From: Bacteroidaceae bacterium
GTDB taxonomy: Bacteria > Bacteroidota > Bacteroidia > Bacteroidales > Bacteroidaceae
Assembly: GCA_024398495.1 (NCBI GenBank)
Contig: JAKSJA010000019.1
Coordinates: forward strand, 1-33,531
Direction of reading: 5' to 3'
Length of the DNA: 33,531 bases
A program made the translations under genes and the position numbers. Under the pieces are notes generated by a model, which ran no database searches, was not told where the DNA came from, and worked only from the letters and a program-made list of their open reading frames with translations. This document shows positions 23,409 to 33,531 of this stretch, in pieces; position 1 is the stretch's first letter, and each line of letters starts with the position of its first letter.

Positions 23409-25748
23409 TCAGAAATTGAATTTCACATTGCAGATGATACTGCGTCCTTGTCCTGGCACTCCACGCATAAGTTGTCCGCCACTGATATAGTCAGTATCAA
23501 GAAGATTGTGTACATCAAGAGACAAGTCTAAGCCAAATGGTGAACACCATTCCGCTCCCAAACCAACGACAGCATACGCATCCTGCATCTCAGTAAGGAT
23601 AATTGTAGGGTCTATAATCTTCTTCACAATATCGTTTTGCATACATTCTACCTCTGACTGGAAATGCACGTTAGCACGTACCCAGAAATCACCTGCGGTC
23701 TTCATAGAATAGAACTTCTGCGCTGCTGTGAGGTTGAGTAGGAATTTCGGCACATTGTTCATCTTGTCATTTTCTGATGAGAAGTTCTCCACGCGGAATG
23801 GATGTTGGAATGTAAAGTTGAGGTTTGCTATCGTTCTGTCCGTAGTATATTGAACAGTATTCTCAATTCCTCCCATATTGATGTTTCCTGCATTACTGAA
23901 AGTGGTAGCACCTCCCTGATTATAATAGACAAGACCTTTCACCATATTGTAGAAAGCATTTATTTCATAAGTGAGATGTAATTTTTTCCAGTTAAAGTTG
24001 GCACTCATCTGGAAAGCATCCATCTTTTCTGAATCGAGATTTTCTCCACCGGAGAAGATACTTATATATGAACCGCGATAGAAGAGCGGTGCATCTACGA
24101 ATGAATGCGAGTATCCACCCTTGAAACTTAGTACATCATTGGCAAGCCAGATGAGTGATACACGTGGCGAATATGTATTGATGCGTCTATCGTCTTGACG
24201 TATCTTATGATCAAAACGTATGCCACCGTTGAAGATAAGCCTCTTGGTAAAGTTGTGTTTCAACTGGAAGAACGCAGACAGCGTATGTTCCGAATTTTCG
24301 TTGAAGACCGTGTTTATGGTATTGTTGATCTGAGAAAAGTCAGCTCCTAATTTCAATTCTGCATTAGAAAAGACAAATGACTCATACTGAAGTCCGAAGA
24401 GCATGGAGCCGTACATATTATTTCCCAATTGGTAATTATATCCTCCGTTTGCCGTTGCTCCGAAACTATAGTCCTCCCATCCGATGACCTGTATTACACC
24501 TCGTGTCTTTACTGACGGGATGCCCAACATACTTGCCAGATATGCTGCTATCATATAGTCAACGGTATCACCGAGTGAATTATATATCTGTATGCGTTCT
24601 TTAGCCAAAAAAGCAGATGCAGAGAATGAGAAGTCACCCCATGTCTTGTTATAATCCAAATCAGCACGTACCAACGACTGTGAGAATCCTGGTTTTTCTC
24701 CACTCTGCGGATGATAAGCGTCATAAGTGAATTGATCGTCAAGACCTATGAGATTATAAAAAGGTACCGTCTTTGAATACTGTCCTATCAGAGATATCTT
24801 AAAATTCCCCCAACGAATCTTGCCACCGAACTCATAAGACGGCTGACTGTTATAACCACCCACATAATGTGTAACACCGCTTAAATTGCGTTTTTCTCCG
24901 TCTGCAGTATATATGGAGCCCCATGCCATAACATCCGTCATGAGGTTACCCTTACCAAACATTGCCGCTCCTCCGTATGTATCAAAACTGCCGGCACGTG
25001 CAGCAAGTCTTCCGCCATCAATGTCGCTACCCGACTTCGTGATAATGTTCACCACTGCCGTCAATGCCACATTACCATACAAGGATGATGCAGGACCACG
25101 CAATACTTCTATTTGCTTTATCTTATTCAAGTCATGACGACAGTCGAAAGCCACGGCATTTGTGGTGGCACTATTTAGACGATGTCCGTCAACCATTACC
25201 AACACCGTCTCCTGTGCCAAGCCATACACACCGCGCATGGCGATATTCTGTTCAAGGCTTCCTATCTGCGACATACCCGGCACATAGAGCATCAATACAT
25301 CATTGAGAGAGTTGGCACCAGAAGCACGTATCATCTCTTCCGTAATCAATGTAATCGGTACTGGTACTTCCTCGATGGATTCGTTCATTCGTGATGCCGT
25401 ACTGACTGTTGCCTGTCCTTTTTTCAAGCGTTCTATTATGTCAATAAAACGCGGAGAGTCATTATAGGCCGTATAATATGGATCAAGGGCCAACAATTTT
25501 CCCGCATAGTTTTCCGCCTTTTCCTGTTCATCTTGATTAAGACTGCTCAATGCAAGGAGACGGTATGCCTGAACGAGTTTTTCTCCCTTTGTCTTATGCA
25601 CGAGAGACAACAGAATAGAATCTGCCTGCTGGAAATGTCCCAAGTCATACGCCTTGGCTGCCATGTCAAAATCCTCATTTTCCTGCGCTTTTACAGATGT
25701 GGAAAAAAACGCAAAGAATATAAGTACAAAATATAATACTTGTTTCAT
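23409..25748 (-). CDS. TonB-dependent receptor with TPR-like N-terminal domain
   Basis: The 779-residue outer-membrane protein has a signal peptide ending VKAQ near residue 22. A helical TPR-like segment covers about 25-110 (FDMAAKAYDLGHFQQADSILL, AENYAGKLLALDPYY). A TonB plug covers about 120-240 (VPVPITLITEEMIRASG, QIEVLRGPASSLYGNVALTAVVNIIT), followed by a 22-strand-type barrel ending in the aromatic KFNF. Most Bacteroidetes receptors have a carboxypeptidase-regulatory or STN domain where this one has the TPR-like segment. It is the last gene of the signalling operon, six bases after the soluble kinase. The substrate is unknown; no SusD partner is adjacent. A periplasmic relay role for the TPR-like segment is inferred. 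Confidence 0.92.
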   Translation of the reverse strand: MKQVLYFVLIFFAFFSTSVKAQENEDFDMAAKAYDLGHFQQADSILLSLVHKTKGEKLVQAYRLLALSSLNQDEQEKAENYAGKLLALDPYYTAYNDSPRFIDIIERLKKGQATVSTASRMNESIEEVPVPITLITEEMIRASGANSLNDVLMLYVPGMSQIGSLEQNIAMRGVYGLAQETVLVMVDGHRLNSATTNAVAFDCRHDLNKIKQIEVLRGPASSLYGNVALTAVVNIITKSGSDIDGGRLAARAGSFDTYGGAAMFGKGNLMTDVMAWGSIYTADGEKRNLSGVTHYVGGYNSQPSYEFGGKIRWGNFKISLIGQYSKTVPFYNLIGLDDQFTYDAYHPQSGEKPGFSQSLVRADLDYNKTWGDFSFSASAFLAKERIQIYNSLGDTVDYMIAAYLASMLGIPSVKTRGVIQVIGWEDYSFGATANGGYNYQLGNNMYGSMLFGLQYESFVFSNAELKLGADFSQINNTINTVFNENSEHTLSAFFQLKHNFTKRLIFNGGIRFDHKIRQDDRRINTYSPRVSLIWLANDVLSFKGGYSHSFVDAPLFYRGSYISIFSGGENLDSEKMDAFQMSANFNWKKLHLTYEINAFYNMVKGLVYYNQGGATTFSNAGNINMGGIENTVQYTTDRTIANLNFTFQHPFRVENFSSENDKMNNVPKFLLNLTAAQKFYSMKTAGDFWVRANVHFQSEVECMQNDIVKKIIDPTIILTEMQDAYAVVGLGAEWCSPFGLDLSLDVHNLLDTDYISGGQLMRGVPGQGRSIICNVKFNF

Positions 25749-25754
25749 ATTCTC

Positions 25755-26618
25755 TTACTTTACCGTTTTTACAGGGATGATAAATGTAAATGCCGAGCCC
25801 TTGCCTTCTTCGGACTCTATATTTACCTGCCCATTATGATTTTTTGTAATTATCTCACGCATGATACCCATTCCTAAGCCTGTACCCTTACCTACAGGTT
25901 TCGTTGTGTAGAAGTTTTCAAAAAGACGTGTTTTCACTTCTTCTGACATCCCCATACCATTATCGGCAATACGTATTGTCAAAGATGCAGGTGACACAGT
26001 CGTATCAAGTTCTACCTTTACATCTATCGTTGGCGTATAATCCGTTGAATCTGCAAGATTCCTCTTTTCTTCTACCGTATAGCAGGCGTTATTCATAACA
26101 TTAAGAACTGCACGACTTAGATCCTGCGGAATAACCATTACCTTAGGCATATTCTCTTGATATTCCTCATGTATCGATACATTGAATTCTTTATTATTTG
26201 CTCTTACAGCATGATAACTGAGCCACACATATTCATGAACCAGCTGCTCAATGTCAACAGGAAGAAATTCACCTGATTTACCTCTACTTTGCAGAAGAAT
26301 ACCTCGTATGATACTGATTGCACGTTCTCCGTGTTCCTGTATCTTGCCAAGGTTTTCTCTGAGGTCATCAGCGATATCCTGCATGTCCGCGGCATCATCT
26401 TCGTCAAGACGGTCAGCACAGTCTGACACAATGTCCTCCAGATCTTCAAGGAGTTTGACCGAGAGTTTGCTGAAATTGATAACAAAGTTAAGTGGATTCT
26501 GAACCTCATGTGCAATACCCGCACTCAATGTTCCCAATGAAGCCAACTTCTCCTGTTTCTGCAGTTTCTCCTGCATATCGCTAAGTTGCTGTTTTAATTC
26601 TTCTATCTTATCCATCAT
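25755..26618 (-). CDS. Soluble sensor-less histidine kinase
   Basis: The 287-residue predicted cytosolic kinase has no signal peptide, membrane helix or sensor domain. A short coiled coil (residues 3-25) leads into a DHp helix with phospho-acceptor His37 (AGIAHEVQNPLNF). The ATPase domain has the N box NVMNNACYTV, G1 ADNGMGM and G2 GKGTGLGMGI, all intact. The ATG overlaps the stop of the propeller kinase (ATGA, 26615-26618). Its DHp helix aligns closely with that of the propeller kinase (both read NPxNxxxNFS after the H box), so the two may dimerise. The nearest plausible phospho-target is the receiver-PP2C protein of the same operon. Confidence 0.92.
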   Translation of the reverse strand: MMDKIEELKQQLSDMQEKLQKQEKLASLGTLSAGIAHEVQNPLNFVINFSKLSVKLLEDLEDIVSDCADRLDEDDAADMQDIADDLRENLGKIQEHGERAISIIRGILLQSRGKSGEFLPVDIEQLVHEYVWLSYHAVRANNKEFNVSIHEEYQENMPKVMVIPQDLSRAVLNVMNNACYTVEEKRNLADSTDYTPTIDVKVELDTTVSPASLTIRIADNGMGMSEEVKTRLFENFYTTKPVGKGTGLGMGIMREIITKNHNGQVNIESEEGKGSAFTFIIPVKTVK

Positions 26619-29245
26619 AACGTAACTGTAAATTCTGTAAATTTATCTTTTTCCGATTTTACCGTAATTGTTCCACCTGCATCCTGTATTACCTGCTGAC
26701 AGAGATAGAGTCCTACTCCCGGAGCCTCTGCAGTAGGTTTGGTGGTAAAGAATGGGTCGAATATCTTATCCAATATACTTTCTTCTATGCCGATGCCATT
26801 GTCATAAACAGAGATATGAAGTTTTTCATCTTTATTGACAGACAGACGAACCGTAGGCACATAACCTTCTTCTGGTTGTCCTCCCTCTTTAGATGCTTTC
26901 TTTTTTAGTGCGTAGATACTATTGGACAGCATTGAAAGTATCGTCTTCCCGATATGTTCTGCAACAACATGAGCCACCATAGGTTCCGATGGCTTCTGCC
27001 ATTCTACGTGAATGCCATATTTCTGGATATCTTCTGAAAAATACTTGTTCAACATTTCAATGTTTTTTTCGCAAAGATCTGTAATATTCACATCTTCCAC
27101 TTTACCAGAACGTTCTTTCAAAAGTTCTTCCATTGCTTTTAGTATACGTGTCGTAGAGAGTCCATGTTGTTCTATCTTCGCCAGATTAGTATTCATCATA
27201 TCTATTACATCTAACGAATCTTCATAAGCATCTTCCGTCATGTTCTTCTCTTCTTTCTCTATATTCTCCTTGAGGTCATTTGCCAAATCCAAAGACATAT
27301 GCGAGAAATTGTTGATGTAATTCATCGGATTGAGAATACGGTCAATAAGTCCTTTTGTCAACTTTCCTACCGTTGCCTCCTTTTCCTGACGGAGTATCTT
27401 GCTATGAGCCTCCTTCAACTGCTCTGTACGTTTGTCAACAATCTTTTCAAGACGCATCTGTTCTTGTCTTGCACGATGTATCCTCCAACGGAAGAACAGA
27501 TAAATAAGGAATACGATGATAATTAAATATAACAATATCGCATACCATTTCATGTACAACGGCACTGGGACATCAAACGACTTGGTGGCGGACTCGGAAA
27601 TATTACCATAAGAATCCAACGAACGCACCGTCAGTTCATAGCTACCCGGAGTAAGATGAGCGAAAGTATACGTCTGATCATCACTCCAACGCGACCATTT
27701 GCTATCGTCATGCAAACGATAACTGTATTTCGTATTGCCAATTGGGTCGCCTTTGTCGGCTGCTATTTCGAAATCTACATTTCCGCCATCAACGACCAGA
27801 TTACGAAGATAAGTATTCTGCGTATATGGATGAGTGTCCACCATATTTGTATTAAAACGGATGAGCCCAAAGATGCCACCTAACCAAGCAATACCATCTT
27901 TGATATCCATTGCTTGAATAGTGTAACTCTTAAATGGCAGCAACCATTTTGTCTGATCTTTATACAAGTGTTTTGCAACAAGTCCTGATCCGTTGTTGCC
28001 CGCAGTCCATGTATGCCCTTTCTCATCCATATATTCCATTAGAAGGGAAAGGCGTCCGTATGGCTTTTTTACGAAACCATCCTGCATAGGAGCCTTGTAA
28101 TATGTCTCCTTATTCAATGTCAGCACCCAAATACCGCCGTTGGATTCACGTTTGAACTTCACAACATTCTGTATCGGTGCAATCTTCTTATCAGTACCAT
28201 CTAATCGATGACGATAGATACCATCCAACTCACCGGTAAGGAATGAAGTCTGGTTTTCTTTGAACACGCTTAATGTATGACGTGATGTCAGTTGTCTTAC
28301 CCCCTCTCCAACAATAAACAGACCATCAACGGTGGCTGCCAAAGTCTGGGAGTCACTGGCTTTTACAAGATTCCAGCACGCCTGTTCCGAAGACAGCACA
28401 CGTTTGAAATGGTTGTTGTCATCAAGCACAAAGAGTCCCTGCAAAGTACCTACTATTAACCGGTCGTTATTATTAAGTATGCAAGTTACCTGACCTGCAA
28501 GACCATCTTTCTCCGTATAATGGGAATAAATAGGAGAAATGTTTACTACAAAAATACCATTGTCGGTAACTCCCCACAGATTACCCTTGCCATTGTAAGC
28601 AATATCATTAACGTTATTACTACATAGTCCATCATCTGTTGTTAGTGAAAATATCGGGGATTCATCTTTTGTAAGTACAATACCCCTGTTTATAGTAGTT
28701 GCAGCAACAAATTTATCATCAGAATCAGAGATTTTGACAGTCTTTATCCCATCATTATGAGTTGGTTTATATTTTATCGACTTATATGAAGAGTTCGACA
28801 GCATGTAGTTCTTATCATTGGCAGTAAAACATATTTTACCATTATGTTCATATATCTGCGCAATCTCACCGATATTGACCTTCTTATCCGTATCACTTAT
28901 CACAAACGTCACTTGAATACTGTCTGTCACATCAACTGCATAACCAAGCACATTATATCCACCAAACCACACCTTACCGTCTTTTGACTTGTATAAAGTG
29001 GTTACGCGAGATACTGCCGGCGTATGAGTCATTTTCCAACTTACGCCATCATAGATTAACAAACCTTCAAAGTTTGCCACATATACATGCCCCGTCTTGT
29101 CACATTCCACGGCAAAGTTTCTATTATGGCCATGATATTCCAGTGCAGTGAAATTGACAAAGAACGGTTTCCCCGACATGACACCTGCAAATCCAAAATA
29201 TGAGATGCTACACAAGAATACTGTAACTAATAATCTTTTCATCAT
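26615..29245 (-). CDS. Propeller/Y_Y_Y sensor histidine kinase lacking the phospho-acceptor His
   Basis: The 876-residue membrane protein has a signal sequence (1-20). A large periplasmic two-component-regulator propeller (about 25-480) contains repeats such as KVWFGGYNVLGY and DDGLCSNNVNDIAYNGKGNLWG. A Y_Y_Y domain (about 490-560, TPGSYELTVRSLDSYGNIS) is followed by one membrane helix (about 567-588), a coiled coil, a DHp-like helix and an ATPase domain. The usual His is Asp635 (KGLIDRILNPMNY). The ATPase motifs are largely kept: N box SNSIYAL, G1 YDNGIGIEES, FDPFFTTKP, and G2 GVGLYLC. No DNA-binding or receiver domain is fused, unlike hybrid two-component systems of Bacteroides. The start is ATG 29245 (or 29242), behind a strong Shine-Dalgarno; the frame open to 29293 precedes the signal sequence. 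Confidence 0.9.
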   Translation of the reverse strand: MMKRLLVTVFLCSISYFGFAGVMSGKPFFVNFTALEYHGHNRNFAVECDKTGHVYVANFEGLLIYDGVSWKMTHTPAVSRVTTLYKSKDGKVWFGGYNVLGYAVDVTDSIQVTFVISDTDKKVNIGEIAQIYEHNGKICFTANDKNYMLSNSSYKSIKYKPTHNDGIKTVKISDSDDKFVAATTINRGIVLTKDESPIFSLTTDDGLCSNNVNDIAYNGKGNLWGVTDNGIFVVNISPIYSHYTEKDGLAGQVTCILNNNDRLIVGTLQGLFVLDDNNHFKRVLSSEQACWNLVKASDSQTLAATVDGLFIVGEGVRQLTSRHTLSVFKENQTSFLTGELDGIYRHRLDGTDKKIAPIQNVVKFKRESNGGIWVLTLNKETYYKAPMQDGFVKKPYGRLSLLMEYMDEKGHTWTAGNNGSGLVAKHLYKDQTKWLLPFKSYTIQAMDIKDGIAWLGGIFGLIRFNTNMVDTHPYTQNTYLRNLVVDGGNVDFEIAADKGDPIGNTKYSYRLHDDSKWSRWSDDQTYTFAHLTPGSYELTVRSLDSYGNISESATKSFDVPVPLYMKWYAILLYLIIIVFLIYLFFRWRIHRARQEQMRLEKIVDKRTEQLKEAHSKILRQEKEATVGKLTKGLIDRILNPMNYINNFSHMSLDLANDLKENIEKEEKNMTEDAYEDSLDVIDMMNTNLAKIEQHGLSTTRILKAMEELLKERSGKVEDVNITDLCEKNIEMLNKYFSEDIQKYGIHVEWQKPSEPMVAHVVAEHIGKTILSMLSNSIYALKKKASKEGGQPEEGYVPTVRLSVNKDEKLHISVYDNGIGIEESILDKIFDPFFTTKPTAEAPGVGLYLCQQVIQDAGGTITVKSEKDKFTEFTVTL

Positions 29246-29250
29246 TCTAT

Positions 29251-29254
29251 CTCC
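29251..29254 (-). promoter_or_regulatory. Strong Shine-Dalgarno before the propeller kinase
   Basis: The minus strand reads AAAGGAGATAGAATGATG, placing GGAG 5 bases before the ATG at 29245 and 8 before the one at 29242. Other genes here mostly lack such a site, as is usual in Bacteroidota, so it helps fix this start. Confidence 0.6.
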
Positions 29255-29255
29255 T

Positions 29256-30932
29256 TTATTTGAATTTAACAAAAGGTATGTTTGTCCCCACATAATGGCT
29301 CCACTCTTCGCTTGTGAAGTTACGATGCAGTTTGTTCTTCAAACTATTCGACAATACCGGTACGGAAATATTCATCTTCTGTACCATACCATTACTTGTA
29401 CCGATGAGGACTTCCGTAGGACTTATACGTGACAGTACAAGTGGCCATCCTTCAAATTTATATTCCACCGGTGTAAGCCACTCTGTGGAAGTACCTTTCT
29501 TGTCCACTTGCTTCACCGGCTTCACCATAGCAGTATTAATCTCTTCCGCAAATGTCATACCACTTGGAAATGGAACCATTGACATATTCCATATTGCAAC
29601 TGTTTTGTCATAACCACTTGACACGAGGATATTACCCAATGCAACGACACTGGACACCTTACTGATGTGGGCAGACAAGGTAATGATATTACGTTGATAT
29701 TTGTTTATCACACCTATATCGCCATTCTTGTATCCAAGATACAGACACCCAGATGCTGTATCATAATAAGCGGCGGTGACGACACCCTTTGTCAAAGGTT
29801 TTTTCGGGGTGATATTGCCAGCAACATCCATCTCAGCATAAGAACCATCCACATAGAAAAGACTGATAGTCTTATTATGTTTTATGATTGCTGACAATGG
29901 TTTTGACAAGTCCATAGGTTTGGATTTTGAGCCATTGTTGACATTGTACCAACACATGGATTTGCGTCCTGCCAAAAGCAATGTTCTTTCGTTGACTTTC
30001 ACAATCTTGATATATGAATCGGATTGCAAATTAACAATCTTTGCCTTCTTCAACAAACCCGTCAGACTTATTATCACCAATTGTCCATGTGCTGACAATG
30101 CATACACGTTGTTTTTCTCTATGCATGCATCACGGAAGTCAAACATATTGTCATGAAAAAGAACTTGCCCTGCAGACCCCACAGACTTTATAAGTTCTAT
30201 CTCACCATAATCAGAAACAGCAATACACCTGCCATCTGCCATAGGAAGCAATGTCGTAACAGCTCCCCTCTTATGCATGAAACTGCTTTTCTTCGCATCG
30301 ACAGCAAGGCTCAATGCCTTAAATGATTCTGACAGATAAGTATTGCCCTTGTATTTATTGAGATAATACCAGCTGGTGTATGCCAACAGGTCTGCGATTT
30401 CACCATTTCCAGTCTCATGTTGAGTGATGGACAAATTGCCCAACGTTCTTCCGAGTGTCCGAAAACTCAATGTATCCGTTATGCTCTTTGCATAATTTGC
30501 CTGGTCACGCTGCTCTTCTGCCATCTTCTGATGACTTATTGCCATTGCCCTCTGACTTTCTGCTTCACGTGCAGATTTCTCTGCCTCTTGTGCATACTGC
30601 TTTGCTTGATTTTCTGCCTGACGTGCAGCATGGCTCTCCGCCTCTGCCTTGTCACGCATCTGAATAGCAAGTTTTGATTGTTCTTCCGCACGATCTCGTT
30701 GCTTGTCAGAGATGGCTTTTTGCTGATACGCGATATCCTCCATCTGCTGGCTGACACGTTTCACTATGGCTGCATCACGCTCTTCTACTTGCAGGGTGTG
30801 AATATTTTCCAACAACTCTTCCCTATCTGTACTTTCAGAAGCATTTTTACCAATCAGAAACGAGATTACTGCTATTACGGCAACTGCAAGTACAGCCGCA
30901 GGAATCAGTACCTTTTTATCTAATAGTTTCAT
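29256..30932 (-). CDS. Membrane-anchored coiled-coil/WD40-like propeller protein
   Basis: The 558-residue protein has an N-terminal membrane helix (about 7-28, LIPAAVLAVAVIAVISFLIG). A long Ala/Glu/Gln/Arg-rich coiled coil covers about 35-150. A conserved-looking helical segment follows (LLAYTSWYYLNKYKGNTY), then a beta-propeller (about 210-500, for example SSVVALGNILVSSGYDKTVAIWNM). The C-terminal tail FTSEEWSHYVGTNIPF resembles the ends of WD40 proteins fused to STAND NTPase or caspase-like domains, but no such domain is present. The anchored coiled coil suggests an oligomeric scaffold; which side of the membrane holds the propeller is not certain. The ATG overlaps the phosphatase stop by four bases, and its stop is 10 bases before the propeller kinase. 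Confidence 0.83.
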   Translation of the reverse strand: MKLLDKKVLIPAAVLAVAVIAVISFLIGKNASESTDREELLENIHTLQVEERDAAIVKRVSQQMEDIAYQQKAISDKQRDRAEEQSKLAIQMRDKAEAESHAARQAENQAKQYAQEAEKSAREAESQRAMAISHQKMAEEQRDQANYAKSITDTLSFRTLGRTLGNLSITQHETGNGEIADLLAYTSWYYLNKYKGNTYLSESFKALSLAVDAKKSSFMHKRGAVTTLLPMADGRCIAVSDYGEIELIKSVGSAGQVLFHDNMFDFRDACIEKNNVYALSAHGQLVIISLTGLLKKAKIVNLQSDSYIKIVKVNERTLLLAGRKSMCWYNVNNGSKSKPMDLSKPLSAIIKHNKTISLFYVDGSYAEMDVAGNITPKKPLTKGVVTAAYYDTASGCLYLGYKNGDIGVINKYQRNIITLSAHISKVSSVVALGNILVSSGYDKTVAIWNMSMVPFPSGMTFAEEINTAMVKPVKQVDKKGTSTEWLTPVEYKFEGWPLVLSRISPTEVLIGTSNGMVQKMNISVPVLSNSLKNKLHRNFTSEEWSHYVGTNIPFVKFK

Positions 30933-32095
30933 TTAAGTCGTTTTATCACTAACTGCGTAATATCATCAAACTGAGTTGCTTCGCCTACAAATTCCTTTAT
31001 CTTCTCATTGATAGTCTTTACTATCGTCTCACTATCTGCACCACGAAGTTCCTTGAGAGTATTTATGAGGCGCTCGTCACTAAACTGATTGTGTTCCGTA
31101 TCTTCAGCCTCTGTCACGCCATCAGTAAATGTCACCAGAATATCATTTGGTTGCAATTGCATTGTGTCGCTCTTATATTCAAGACCTTCCATAATGCCCA
31201 ATGCCATGTTTGTATTAGACTTAACCATATCCACACTGCCATCCGCATGAAGTACATACGGACGGTTATGACCTGCGTTGGTGTATTCTATTGTTCCTGT
31301 GGTCATGTCGTAAATACCATAGAAGACTGTTACAAACATTTCATCCAGACTCTCTTCACAAAGAAGATTATTCACTATCTTCATACATTCATTGGAAGAA
31401 ATGCCACGTATTCCGTTTGCTTTTATCATTGTGCGGCTTACTGCCATGAAAATTGCAGCCGGAATACCTTTTCCACTGACATCTGCCATCGTGAAACCAA
31501 AATGAGTGTCATCTATTGGGAAGAAATCATAGAAATCGCCACCGACATCCTTTGCTGCGATCATGCTTGCGAACAGGTCAACATTGTCAGCATTATCTAT
31601 CTTCATCTTGAACACACGAGGAAGAATAGCATGCTGTATCTCGCGTGCCACGTCCAAATCATTCTGGATATCAGTGAGTTGTTTATGCTCCTTCTGTGAA
31701 TTACGAACAAACTCTATCTGTTCTATCGCTTTGTTGATAGTCAATTGCAAATCATCAAGGTCTATAGGCTTTGTCGCAAAATCGAAAGCACCATTATTCA
31801 TGGCATGTCGGATATTATCCATATCACCATAAGCACTTACCATGATGCACTTCTGTGCTGGATTACGCATTTCATTGATTTTGCTCAAAAGAGTAAGACC
31901 ATCCATTTCCGGCATATTGATATCCGAAAGGATAATGTCTATATCTGGATGTTTTACCAAGACCTCCAATGCTTCAAGCCCATTGTGCGCAAAGAGAAAT
32001 TCGTATTCTCCGTGACGGATTTTTCTGCGGAAATACTGGGTTAAAAGAAGCTCCAAGTCGAGCTCATCATCTACACTTAGAATTTTTACTGCCAT
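30929..32095 (-). CDS. Response regulator with PP2C (SpoIIE/RsbU-type) phosphatase output
   Basis: The 388-residue cytosolic protein has a receiver domain at 1-125, with acidic pair Asp9/Asp10, phospho-acceptor Asp58 (LSDINMPEMDG), Ser87 and Lys109. A coiled linker covers about 125-160. A PP2C-type Ser/Thr phosphatase domain covers about 160-388, with metal-binding motifs VGGDFYDFF, ADVSGKGIPAA, TFTDGVTEA and FDDITQLV all intact. In other bacteria such proteins dephosphorylate STAS anti-sigma antagonists in partner switching. No STAS or RsbW-like gene is nearby, so the substrate is unknown. It leads the five-gene operon. No clear TAnnTTTG box was found in the 157 bases upstream, which hold two tandem repeats. 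Confidence 0.93.
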   Translation of the reverse strand: MAVKILSVDDELDLELLLTQYFRRKIRHGEYEFLFAHNGLEALEVLVKHPDIDIILSDINMPEMDGLTLLSKINEMRNPAQKCIMVSAYGDMDNIRHAMNNGAFDFATKPIDLDDLQLTINKAIEQIEFVRNSQKEHKQLTDIQNDLDVAREIQHAILPRVFKMKIDNADNVDLFASMIAAKDVGGDFYDFFPIDDTHFGFTMADVSGKGIPAAIFMAVSRTMIKANGIRGISSNECMKIVNNLLCEESLDEMFVTVFYGIYDMTTGTIEYTNAGHNRPYVLHADGSVDMVKSNTNMALGIMEGLEYKSDTMQLQPNDILVTFTDGVTEAEDTEHNQFSDERLINTLKELRGADSETIVKTINEKIKEFVGEATQFDDITQLVIKRLK

Positions 32096-32150
32096 ATTAT
32101 TATCTTAATTTTACGTTATTTCTATTGTTTTACTATTGACTTTAAACTTA

Positions 32151-32190
32151 TACGGTTATACGGTTTTACGGTTTTGCGGTTTTACGGTTG
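32151..32190. repeat. Five tandem 8-bp units (TACGGTTT type)
   Basis: Units at 32151, 32159, 32167, 32175 and 32183 read TACGGTTA, TACGGTTT, TACGGTTT, TGCGGTTT and TACGGTTG. The array is intergenic, upstream of the receiver-PP2C gene. Confidence 0.85.
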
Positions 32191-32194
32191 ACCT

Positions 32195-32250
32195 CTTAAA
32201 CTCTAAACTCTAAACTCTAAACTCTAAACTTTAAACTCTAAACTTTAAAC
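32195..32250. repeat. Eight tandem 7-bp units (TCTAAAC type)
   Basis: Units of seven bases run without interruption from 32195 to 32250: CTTAAAC, four TCTAAAC, TTTAAAC, TCTAAAC, TTTAAAC. The array stops two bases before the stop codon of the nitrilase-family gene and starts four bases after the 8-bp array. Confidence 0.88.
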
Positions 32251-32252
32251 TC

Positions 32253-33093: not shown

Positions 33094-33531
33094 TAAATTT
33101 TATTTATTTCTTTTATTGAAACAAAAAGGCACGAAATTTATTTCAGGGAATTATTGTGACAATAAAAGTAAAACGCAGTTTGTAGGCAGTATTGAGGTGC
33201 AGCCTAATTTCGGCATAGCCAAAATTACAACAAACCGAATGTACTACCAAAATAAATTTGATTTATTTTCTTTTATGAACATAACACGAGCAAAATTTAT
33301 TTTAGTGAGTAGTTATGAGAATAAAAGTAAAACGCAGTTTGTAGGTAGTACTGAGGTGCAGTGTACTTTCGGCGTAGCCAAAATTACAACAAACCGAAGA
33401 CAGAAACAAAAATAATTTAGATTATTTTAGATTTTAATTGTGGGAAACATAGAACTTGTTATATATGTTTTCAAACAAGAAAAATCGTTAAAAACGCAGT
33501 TTTTTTGTTTCTGTTAAGGTGCAGCCTAATT
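33073..33531. repeat. Tandem ~159-bp structured repeat element, about 2.9 copies
   Basis: Copies begin with CAAACCGAA at 33073, 33231 and 33390 (periods 158 and 159); the third runs past the window end. Constant parts are CAAACCGAA, AAAACGCAG, GGTGCAG and TTCGGCrTAGCC. Each copy has complementary arms just inside the constant ends: 33083-33090 with 33185-33192 (one mismatch), 33241-33248 with 33344-33351, and 33400-33412 with 33502-33514. Each also has an AT hairpin near its start (33091-33109, 33250-33268, 33409-33428). The third copy keeps the pairing with different bases. No gene is supported in this stretch. Confidence 0.8.

Follow-up and report, generated by a model that had tools for sequence, protein, structure and literature searches.

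How might a signal received at the envelope of a gut Bacteroidales bacterium reach a protein phosphatase rather than a transcription factor, and on what would that phosphatase act? The question is raised by five open reading frames (ORFs) at positions 23409-32095 of a 33,531-nucleotide stretch of DNA (hereinafter the window), which is the entire contig JAKSJA010000019.1 of a Bacteroidaceae bacterium genome that is 63% complete (assembly GCA_024398495.1; G000 in our set). All five lie on the minus strand, and the junctions between them are exactly -4, +10, -4 and +6 bases (RRPP/CCWD, CCWD/PHK, PHK/SHK and SHK/TBDT), just as an earlier, sequence-only reading of this DNA had given them. In their order, and with the labels used here, they are:

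30929..32095, minus strand: RRPP (receiver-PP2C), a response regulator with a receiver at amino acids (aa) 5-120 and a SpoIIE-type PP2C phosphatase domain at aa 196-386, as delineated by Pfam
29256..30932, minus strand: CCWD (anchored coiled-coil/WD40), with an N-terminal transmembrane segment (TM) at aa 9-27, a long coiled coil, a helical stretch and a WD40-like propeller
26615..29245, minus strand: PHK (propeller histidine kinase), with a propeller (Reg_prop, Y_Y_Y), a TM at aa 567-585, a DHp-like helix without the His and an intact HATPase domain; a predicted pseudokinase
25755..26618, minus strand: SHK (soluble histidine kinase), with HisKA and HATPase domains and no TM
23409..25748, minus strand: TBDT (TonB-dependent receptor), with an N-terminal extension of ~110 aa, weakly TPR-like, ahead of the plug

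The answer that we favor, at a probability of roughly 0.62, is a chain running from the TonB receptor and the periplasmic propellers through a pseudokinase/kinase pair to the receiver-PP2C, and from there to a STAS protein and an RsbW-like kinase. In this chain, TBDT, together with CCWD and the PHK sensor part as two periplasmic propeller proteins, would detect a ligand or the state of the envelope. PHK, which is predicted not to be phosphorylatable on the usual His, would use its DHp helices to pair with SHK, its paralogue, and would set the kinase/phosphatase balance of SHK, or might alternatively lend its intact ATPase domain to the His of SHK. SHK would phosphorylate the receiver of RRPP, whose PP2C domain would dephosphorylate an RsbV-like STAS protein; once dephosphorylated, the STAS protein would capture an RsbW-like Ser kinase, freeing whatever RsbW holds. 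The heterodimer, the direction of the signal, the phosphotransfer and the STAS protein as substrate are what we infer; what can be read from the sequences themselves is the gene set and its order, the conservation of residues, the paralogy of the two kinases, and the presence of RsbW and STAS genes in the same genomes, sometimes in or beside the cassette.

The five-gene set recurs in 46 distinct loci, the window included (a scan of genome contigs had given 37 loci). Four loci (L041, L049, L060 and L063) were dropped as duplicates, being copies of L024, L026, L027 and L028 with identical proteins on contigs of equal length, and two (L036 and L037) as weak CCWD matches without the cassette. All five genes are present in 42 of the 46, with TBDT truncated in L052 and L068; the remaining four are incomplete: three stop at a contig end, and L025 has no TBDT match. 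Since 41 of the 42 complete loci share the same order and strand, a chance arrangement is ruled out, and the neighborhood, whose lack of conservation the sequence-only reading had named as grounds for its own rejection, is conserved. In three of these 41 (L032, L069 and L070) about 6 kb separate RRPP from CCWD. The sole complete locus off this order, L035, consists of two divergent units, RRPP-SHK and PHK-CCWD-TBDT, a split that fits, as expected, a cytoplasmic core and an envelope part. Overlaps of 4 bases are found at 32/45 RRPP/CCWD, 31/44 CCWD/PHK, 6/42 PHK/SHK and 31/41 SHK/TBDT junctions.

Across 201 genomes of the family, the source genome included, CCWD is matched in 15, of which 13 have real cassettes and two (G100 and G119) have weak CCWD matches and no cassette; full-length RRPP is present in the same 13 genomes as the cassette. 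None of 12 listed congeners has a CCWD match, and 295 genomes drawn from the class yielded no full-length CCWD beyond that of the source genome, and hence the cassette is rare and patchy in the sampled genomes. The nearest named record is Candidatus Equicola stercoris (L039), with a CCWD 96% identical to that of the window. Thus, the cassette is a conserved, co-directional and patchily distributed Bacteroidales signaling set. We found no name or description of it in a literature of which the subscription part was poorly covered, in keeping with the earlier failure to recognize it as a named system.

RRPP supplies the output. It matches Response_reg (5.8e-22) and SpoIIE (4e-49) in Pfam, its phospho-acceptor is Asp58 (codon 31924-31922), and nine residues of the receiver and PP2C domains are each kept in 46/46 orthologues. 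No DNA-binding domain is detected in it by Pfam, and the PP2C is the sole output domain of the gene set; the description of the block as ending in a phosphatase and not in a transcription factor therefore holds. The closest solved sequence is 3eq2 (5.2e-25), which together with 3f7a represents RssB of Pseudomonas aeruginosa, a protein of the same receiver-PP2C architecture; RssB is also the best NCBIfam model for RRPP, at a score far below its cut-off. RssB is an adaptor for a sigma factor, and we know of no link between it and TonB receptors or propellers.

The sequence-only reading had two propellers feeding two kinases, and it is here that it has to be amended. PHK matches Reg_prop, Y_Y_Y and HATPase_c (4.2e-19) in Pfam, and the solved propeller sensor kinases 3v9f, 4a2l and 3ott match it by profile. 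At the H-box His site this 876-aa protein has Asp635 (codon 27343-27341), and an Asp occupies the site in 44/44 orthologues, within the motif GL[IV]DRILNP (a 45th row is incomplete and was left out of the residue counts). Accordingly, just one of the two kinase-like proteins in the set counts as catalytic. PHK still has the DHp helix sequence that surrounds the lost His (GL[IV]DRILNP[LM]NY[IV]), and its ATP site is retained too, with the N-box Asn, the G1 Asp and the G2 Gly (one residue per box) each found in 44/44. By these residues PHK is a conserved pseudokinase. Pfam gives no receiver or helix-turn-helix match in PHK, whose HATPase_c match reaches its last residue; two other kinase matches in the source genome, in frames of 1331 and 1338 aa, each come with a receiver as well.

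SHK has HisKA and HATPase_c domains by Pfam and keeps the H-box His (His37 in the window, codon 26510-26508) and the Glu in 43/43 orthologues; hydropathy shows no TM in it and Pfam no recognized sensor domain. When the contigs of the source genome were searched with the kinase part of PHK, SHK scored 119 bits and the next match 26, which makes the two close paralogues. Their paralogy and adjacency render a pairing of PHK and SHK via DHp plausible, by analogy with ChrS-HrrS or RetS-GacS. The retained ATP-site residues of PHK would leave room for trans-phosphorylation of SHK; by contrast, the ATPase of DivL is described as dispensable in the part of the source available (PMC9491836).

On the envelope side, CCWD has a single TM by hydropathy and PHK has one as well, plus a signal-like segment; RRPP and SHK have no TM; these predictions agree with Pfam in bearing out the receiver-PP2C, the anchored coiled-coil/propeller protein and the soluble kinase described from sequence. 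The WD40 match of CCWD in Pfam is weak and below the Pfam cut-off, and WD40 structures match it by profile. A coiled-coil motif, SQQMEDIAY (aa 61-69), is invariant in 21 rows, and no catalytic domain was found in the protein. Because the single TM is N-terminal with basic residues ahead of it, a periplasmic location is probable for the coiled coil and the propeller. In the 295-genome draw, the coiled-coil/helical part matches five class proteins (frames of 1007-1110 aa; E 7e-11 to 1.5e-18), all of which carry nSTAND1 NTPase and WD40 domains; from these matches, CCWD resembles an nSTAND-WD40 protein reduced to its stalk and propeller, with the NTPase missing.

TBDT matches the Plug (4.1e-18) and the TonB barrel (2.6e-26), with the Plug found in 20/20 orthologues. 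It resembles Cir, BtuB and siderophore receptors, the colicin I receptor and BtuB sequences being among its solved-structure matches. Of the "TPR-TonB receptor" first proposed, the plug and barrel are thereby secure; the TPR part has no match in the window protein and only TPR_2 in 5/20 and TPR_16 in 3/20 orthologues at E<=0.1, and as a label for the extension it is plausible.

What, then, would the phosphatase act on? The lack of a STAS or RsbW-like gene had been taken to mean that its target is elsewhere or new. Elsewhere is the likeliest outcome: genome searches with PF13581 (RsbW-like), PF01740 (STAS) and PF07228 (SpoIIE-type PP2C) rule out that the partner switch is missing. In the source genome an RsbW-like kinase gene and a STAS gene adjoin on contig C7, and the near-identical genome of L039 (G491) carries the same RsbW at 98%. 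RsbW-like proteins are encoded by 13/13 family genomes with the cassette as against 59/188 without it, and by 33/33 further cassette genomes, giving 46/46 in total; the Fisher value for the association, 9e-20, counts related genomes as independent and is thus too optimistic. In a comparison of 20 genomes (the 13 with the cassette and 7 of the 12 congeners without it), all 13 cassette genomes have a PF13581 match of at least 69 bits and a small STAS protein, and the seven congeners have PF13581 matches of at most 30.6 bits, with STAS present only in frames of 567-587 aa (4/7) or not at all (3/7).

Moreover, 13/13 cassette genomes versus at most 8/188 cassette-free ones have a standalone RsbW whose fetched stretch contains, RRPP aside, no PP2C (Fisher 2e-15, again too optimistic in counting related genomes as independent). 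The eight comprise G012, G145 and G151, with a standalone RsbW and no PP2C in the stretch, and five conservatively counted as such, namely G068 (short contig) and G011, G077, G191 and a second G155 site (not fetched). Among the cassette-free genomes, 16 of 20 stretches with a standalone RsbW (18 genomes) hold a PP2C gene. In 6/13 genomes no SpoIIE-type PP2C other than RRPP is strong; of these, G104, G197, G006 and G000 have one SpoIIE match each, and G113 and G168 have a second match of just 28-30 bits. That RRPP is always the sole phosphatase is ruled out by this same count and by PP2C-RsbW fusions in further genomes.

The cassette itself contains or adjoins STAS and/or RsbW genes in 8 of the 46 loci:

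L032, L069 and L070: STAS and RsbW between RRPP and CCWD
L030 and L031: STAS and RsbW 3' of TBDT
L043: STAS ahead of RRPP and RsbW 3' of TBDT
L057 and L072: a PP2C-RsbW fusion and STAS upstream of RRPP

In the first three of these loci, of which L070 belongs to the gut commensal Parabacteroides sp. An277, the interval from RRPP to CCWD additionally encodes an isoamylase-like GH13, a DJ-1/PfpI protein and a GlcNAc-2-epimerase-like protein, and a link of GH13, STAS, RsbW and PP2C recurs in the cassette-free L158 and L160.

Several observations weigh against the proposed chain. The RsbW-STAS pair of the source genome is on a different contig of a metagenome-assembled genome that is only 63% complete; RsbW of its close type also occurs in the cassette-free G117, G068 and G119; the congener G122, which lacks the cassette, shows four RsbW-like matches, each in a frame of 681-772 aa; and the standalone RsbW of G034 sits at a contig end, where a neighbor may have been cut off. 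Additional strong PP2Cs are carried by 7/13 cassette genomes. Of the 33 further cassette genomes, 14 have their best RsbW match in a long frame, 12 of these frames being PP2C-RsbW fusions with STAS adjoining in 12/12 (the other two were judged by length only), and RsbW of G495 has a private PP2C as its neighbor; in such genomes the cassette would be at most one input among others. At the other end of the chain, L025 has no TBDT match, and pairwise gene distances over 40 loci, which agree best for CCWD-PHK (r 0.97), with 0.93 for RRPP-SHK, track those of the cytoplasmic genes least for TBDT (r 0.70 with RRPP and 0.73 with SHK). This pattern is what a membrane-to-cytoplasm chain would give, and common descent accounts for most of it.

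These points can be read in other ways. The PP2C of RRPP might act on a phosphoprotein other than STAS, with the RsbW/STAS modules served only by their own sensor-PP2C proteins, as the 12 PP2C-RsbW fusions among the 14 long frames, each with STAS adjoining, would suggest, along with the 38/46 loci where the fetched flank, which is short in some cases, has no STAS or RsbW. We consider this unlikely given that PPM phosphatases of the SpoIIE-type class to which RRPP belongs act on STAS proteins, as the available portion of PMC11418112 has it, that in 6/13 genomes RRPP is the only strong PP2C of this type together with a standalone RsbW, and that STAS/RsbW genes are linked to the cassette in four distinct arrangements.

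The break in the chain might instead fall between the kinases: PHK could be a separate ATPase-sensor with a partner of its own, SHK could answer to cytoplasmic signals only, and the envelope genes could be independent. The divergent transcription of RRPP-SHK and PHK-CCWD-TBDT in L035 is compatible with this, and SHK has neither a TM nor a recognized sensor domain, so that its physical link to PHK is putative. Yet no protein of the source genome comes closer to the kinase part of PHK than SHK does (119 bits versus 26 for the next), the two are neighbors in 41/42 complete loci, with a 4-base overlap in 6/42, and PHK keeps the DHp sequence around its lost His, all of which leaves the separation of the two quite unlikely. 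An ordinary nutrient two-component locus, with a TonB receptor for a siderophore-like compound, a regulator and the PP2C as an incidental output, would draw on the resemblance of TBDT to Cir, BtuB and siderophore receptors and on the AMP-binding/nonribosomal peptide synthetase (NRPS)-type gene 3' of TBDT in 25/39 judged loci. It is highly improbable in view of the argS that follows the TBDT of the window in place of such a gene, of an output without a DNA-binding domain by Pfam, and of PP2C residues kept in 46/46.

The envelope-to-STAS chain would work like RbaY-RbaV-RbaW and HsbR-HsbA, in which a two-component input acts through a PP2C-type response regulator on a STAS protein. The corresponding parts are found here: an intact receiver-PP2C in 46/46 loci, an RsbW-like protein in 46/46 genomes and a small STAS protein in all 13 genomes checked. 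That the PP2C of RRPP dephosphorylates STAS is suggested by linkage, co-occurrence and family. In the part of PMC3999984 available, RbaY of Rhodobacter capsulatus is a receiver-PP2C acting with a STAS protein and an RsbW-like kinase, as proposed here, and is encoded away from the RbaV-RbaW pair, as is RRPP in the source genome; its authors found no sigma target. The sensor kinase of RbaY was unknown there, whereas the phosphatase described here shares its gene set with the receptor, the propellers, the pseudokinase and the kinase. In HsbR-HsbA of Pseudomonas aeruginosa and CrsR-CrsA of Shewanella, a phosphatase response regulator under two-component input sets the phosphorylation of STAS, with outputs via FlgM and RpoS; HsbR (PA3346) is also kinase-active and is fed via an HPt protein, and the available portions of these reports describe no envelope receptor cassette (PMC6482189, PMC8256260).

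For the kinase pair, the precedents are DivL-CckA (Caulobacter), RetS-GacS (Pseudomonas) and ChrS-HrrS (Corynebacterium), where a kinase-like partner controls a competent histidine kinase; as far as the accessible text of the source goes, the partner is a pseudokinase in DivL and a ChrS variant and forms a hetero-oligomer in some cases (PMC9491836). Unlike these, PHK is a propeller sensor with an invariant Asp and a kept ATP site, in one gene set with its candidate partner. It shares a Reg_prop/Y_Y_Y sensor, a TM and a kinase-like part with the Bacteroides hybrid two-component systems, but lacks their fused receiver, DNA-binding output and His. Set against RbaY-RbaV-RbaW and HsbR-HsbA, the difference lies in the encoded input stage, made up of the TonB receptor, the two proteins with propellers, and a pseudokinase and kinase in fixed pairing.

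As to what RsbW might hold, PF04539 (sigma region 3) has a single match, in a frame of 287-313 aa (the size of a primary sigma factor), in 5/9 cassette genomes that are at least 90% complete; there are 2-3 matches in the other 4/9, one in G000 and two in each of the 7 cassette-free congeners. Hence, a SigB-type sigma factor is not a general companion of the cassette, and these counts do not support a SigB-like target as a general rule, extracytoplasmic function (ECF) sigma factors being outside the search. On C7 (L135 8793-12908) the RsbW and STAS genes lie on one strand beside RelA_SpoT-like, HD_4-APH fusion and Y_phosphatase3 genes. In G000, G117 and G119 the RsbW-STAS pairs of this close type have RelA_SpoT-like, HD and tyrosine-phosphatase genes nearby, in G070 the type adjoins the RelA-like gene, and some neighbors of the C7 pair recur in L151, L155, L157, L192 and L193; a link of partner switching to (p)ppGpp in these bacteria is possible. 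L159, L166 and L170 encode, near RsbW, a fusion of STAS with an APH-type phosphotransferase domain (402-407 aa); in L188, RsbW is fused behind a lipid-kinase domain (DAGK_cat and YegS_C) after an HD gene, and L187, L189 and L190 have RsbW frames of 434-439 aa with an N-terminus similar to that of L188, likewise after an HD gene. As clues to the RsbW target, the two kinds of fusion and the RelA/HD neighbors are suggestive only.

The AMP-binding/NRPS-type gene follows TBDT within 42 bases or overlaps it in 25 of the 39 judged loci (including L024, L042 and L069), and L027 and L042 have a second receptor of the same kind 3' of it. Seven of the 46 loci were not judged, L025, L039, L048 and L072 having no TBDT in view and L052, L068 and L064 having 2, 2 and 504 bases left. 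With these counts, and with no such gene 3' of the TBDT of the window, it is ruled out as a universal sixth member. A receiver-RsbW regulator of an NRPS pigment, as described in the available part of PMC12826045, is related in theme and different in build. The RelA-like neighbors and the NRPS-type gene are leads to output and signal. A bolder combination, which we hold to be rather doubtful, would have a split kinase (PHK providing sensing and ATPase, SHK the His) join a TonB receptor to a PP2C switch whose output is (p)ppGpp, lipid or NRPS-type enzymes and not sigma, the receptor in many relatives perhaps reading the product of the adjacent NRPS-type gene, that is, a secreted compound of the cell's own.

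In the window, the mechanically called PHK ORF begins at 29293, and an ATG at 29245 has AAAGGAG a short distance ahead of it; taking this ATG as the start gives the 10-base CCWD/PHK gap. Ahead of the set is a presumed promoter region:

32096..32252, minus strand: the 157-base gap upstream of RRPP, with repeated gtttagagtttaaag-like runs

One promoter-like site is predicted in it, at 32124-32096; promoter and terminator counts for the region are near shuffle level (42 promoter-like sites versus 34.0 in shuffles, standard deviation 5.8, which is near chance). Elsewhere in the window, a nitrilase-like gene is preceded by a gap in which two nearly identical stretches (ggtttgttgtaattttggctaYgccgaaa ... 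ctacaaactgcgttttactttta) lie at 33140-33440, and positions 360-2078 encode a leucine-rich repeat protein of the BspA type (LRR_5, 4.6e-65).

If the proposed chain is correct, gut Bacteroidales would gain an envelope-to-cytoplasm route that ends in protein dephosphorylation and not in the binding of a transcription factor, and whose input and output parts are named. A propeller kinase that is intact apart from an invariant change of His to Asp, next to a paralogue that is competent, would be a clean natural test case for how kinase pairs work, and the partner-switch side would give small sets of directly testable candidate targets.

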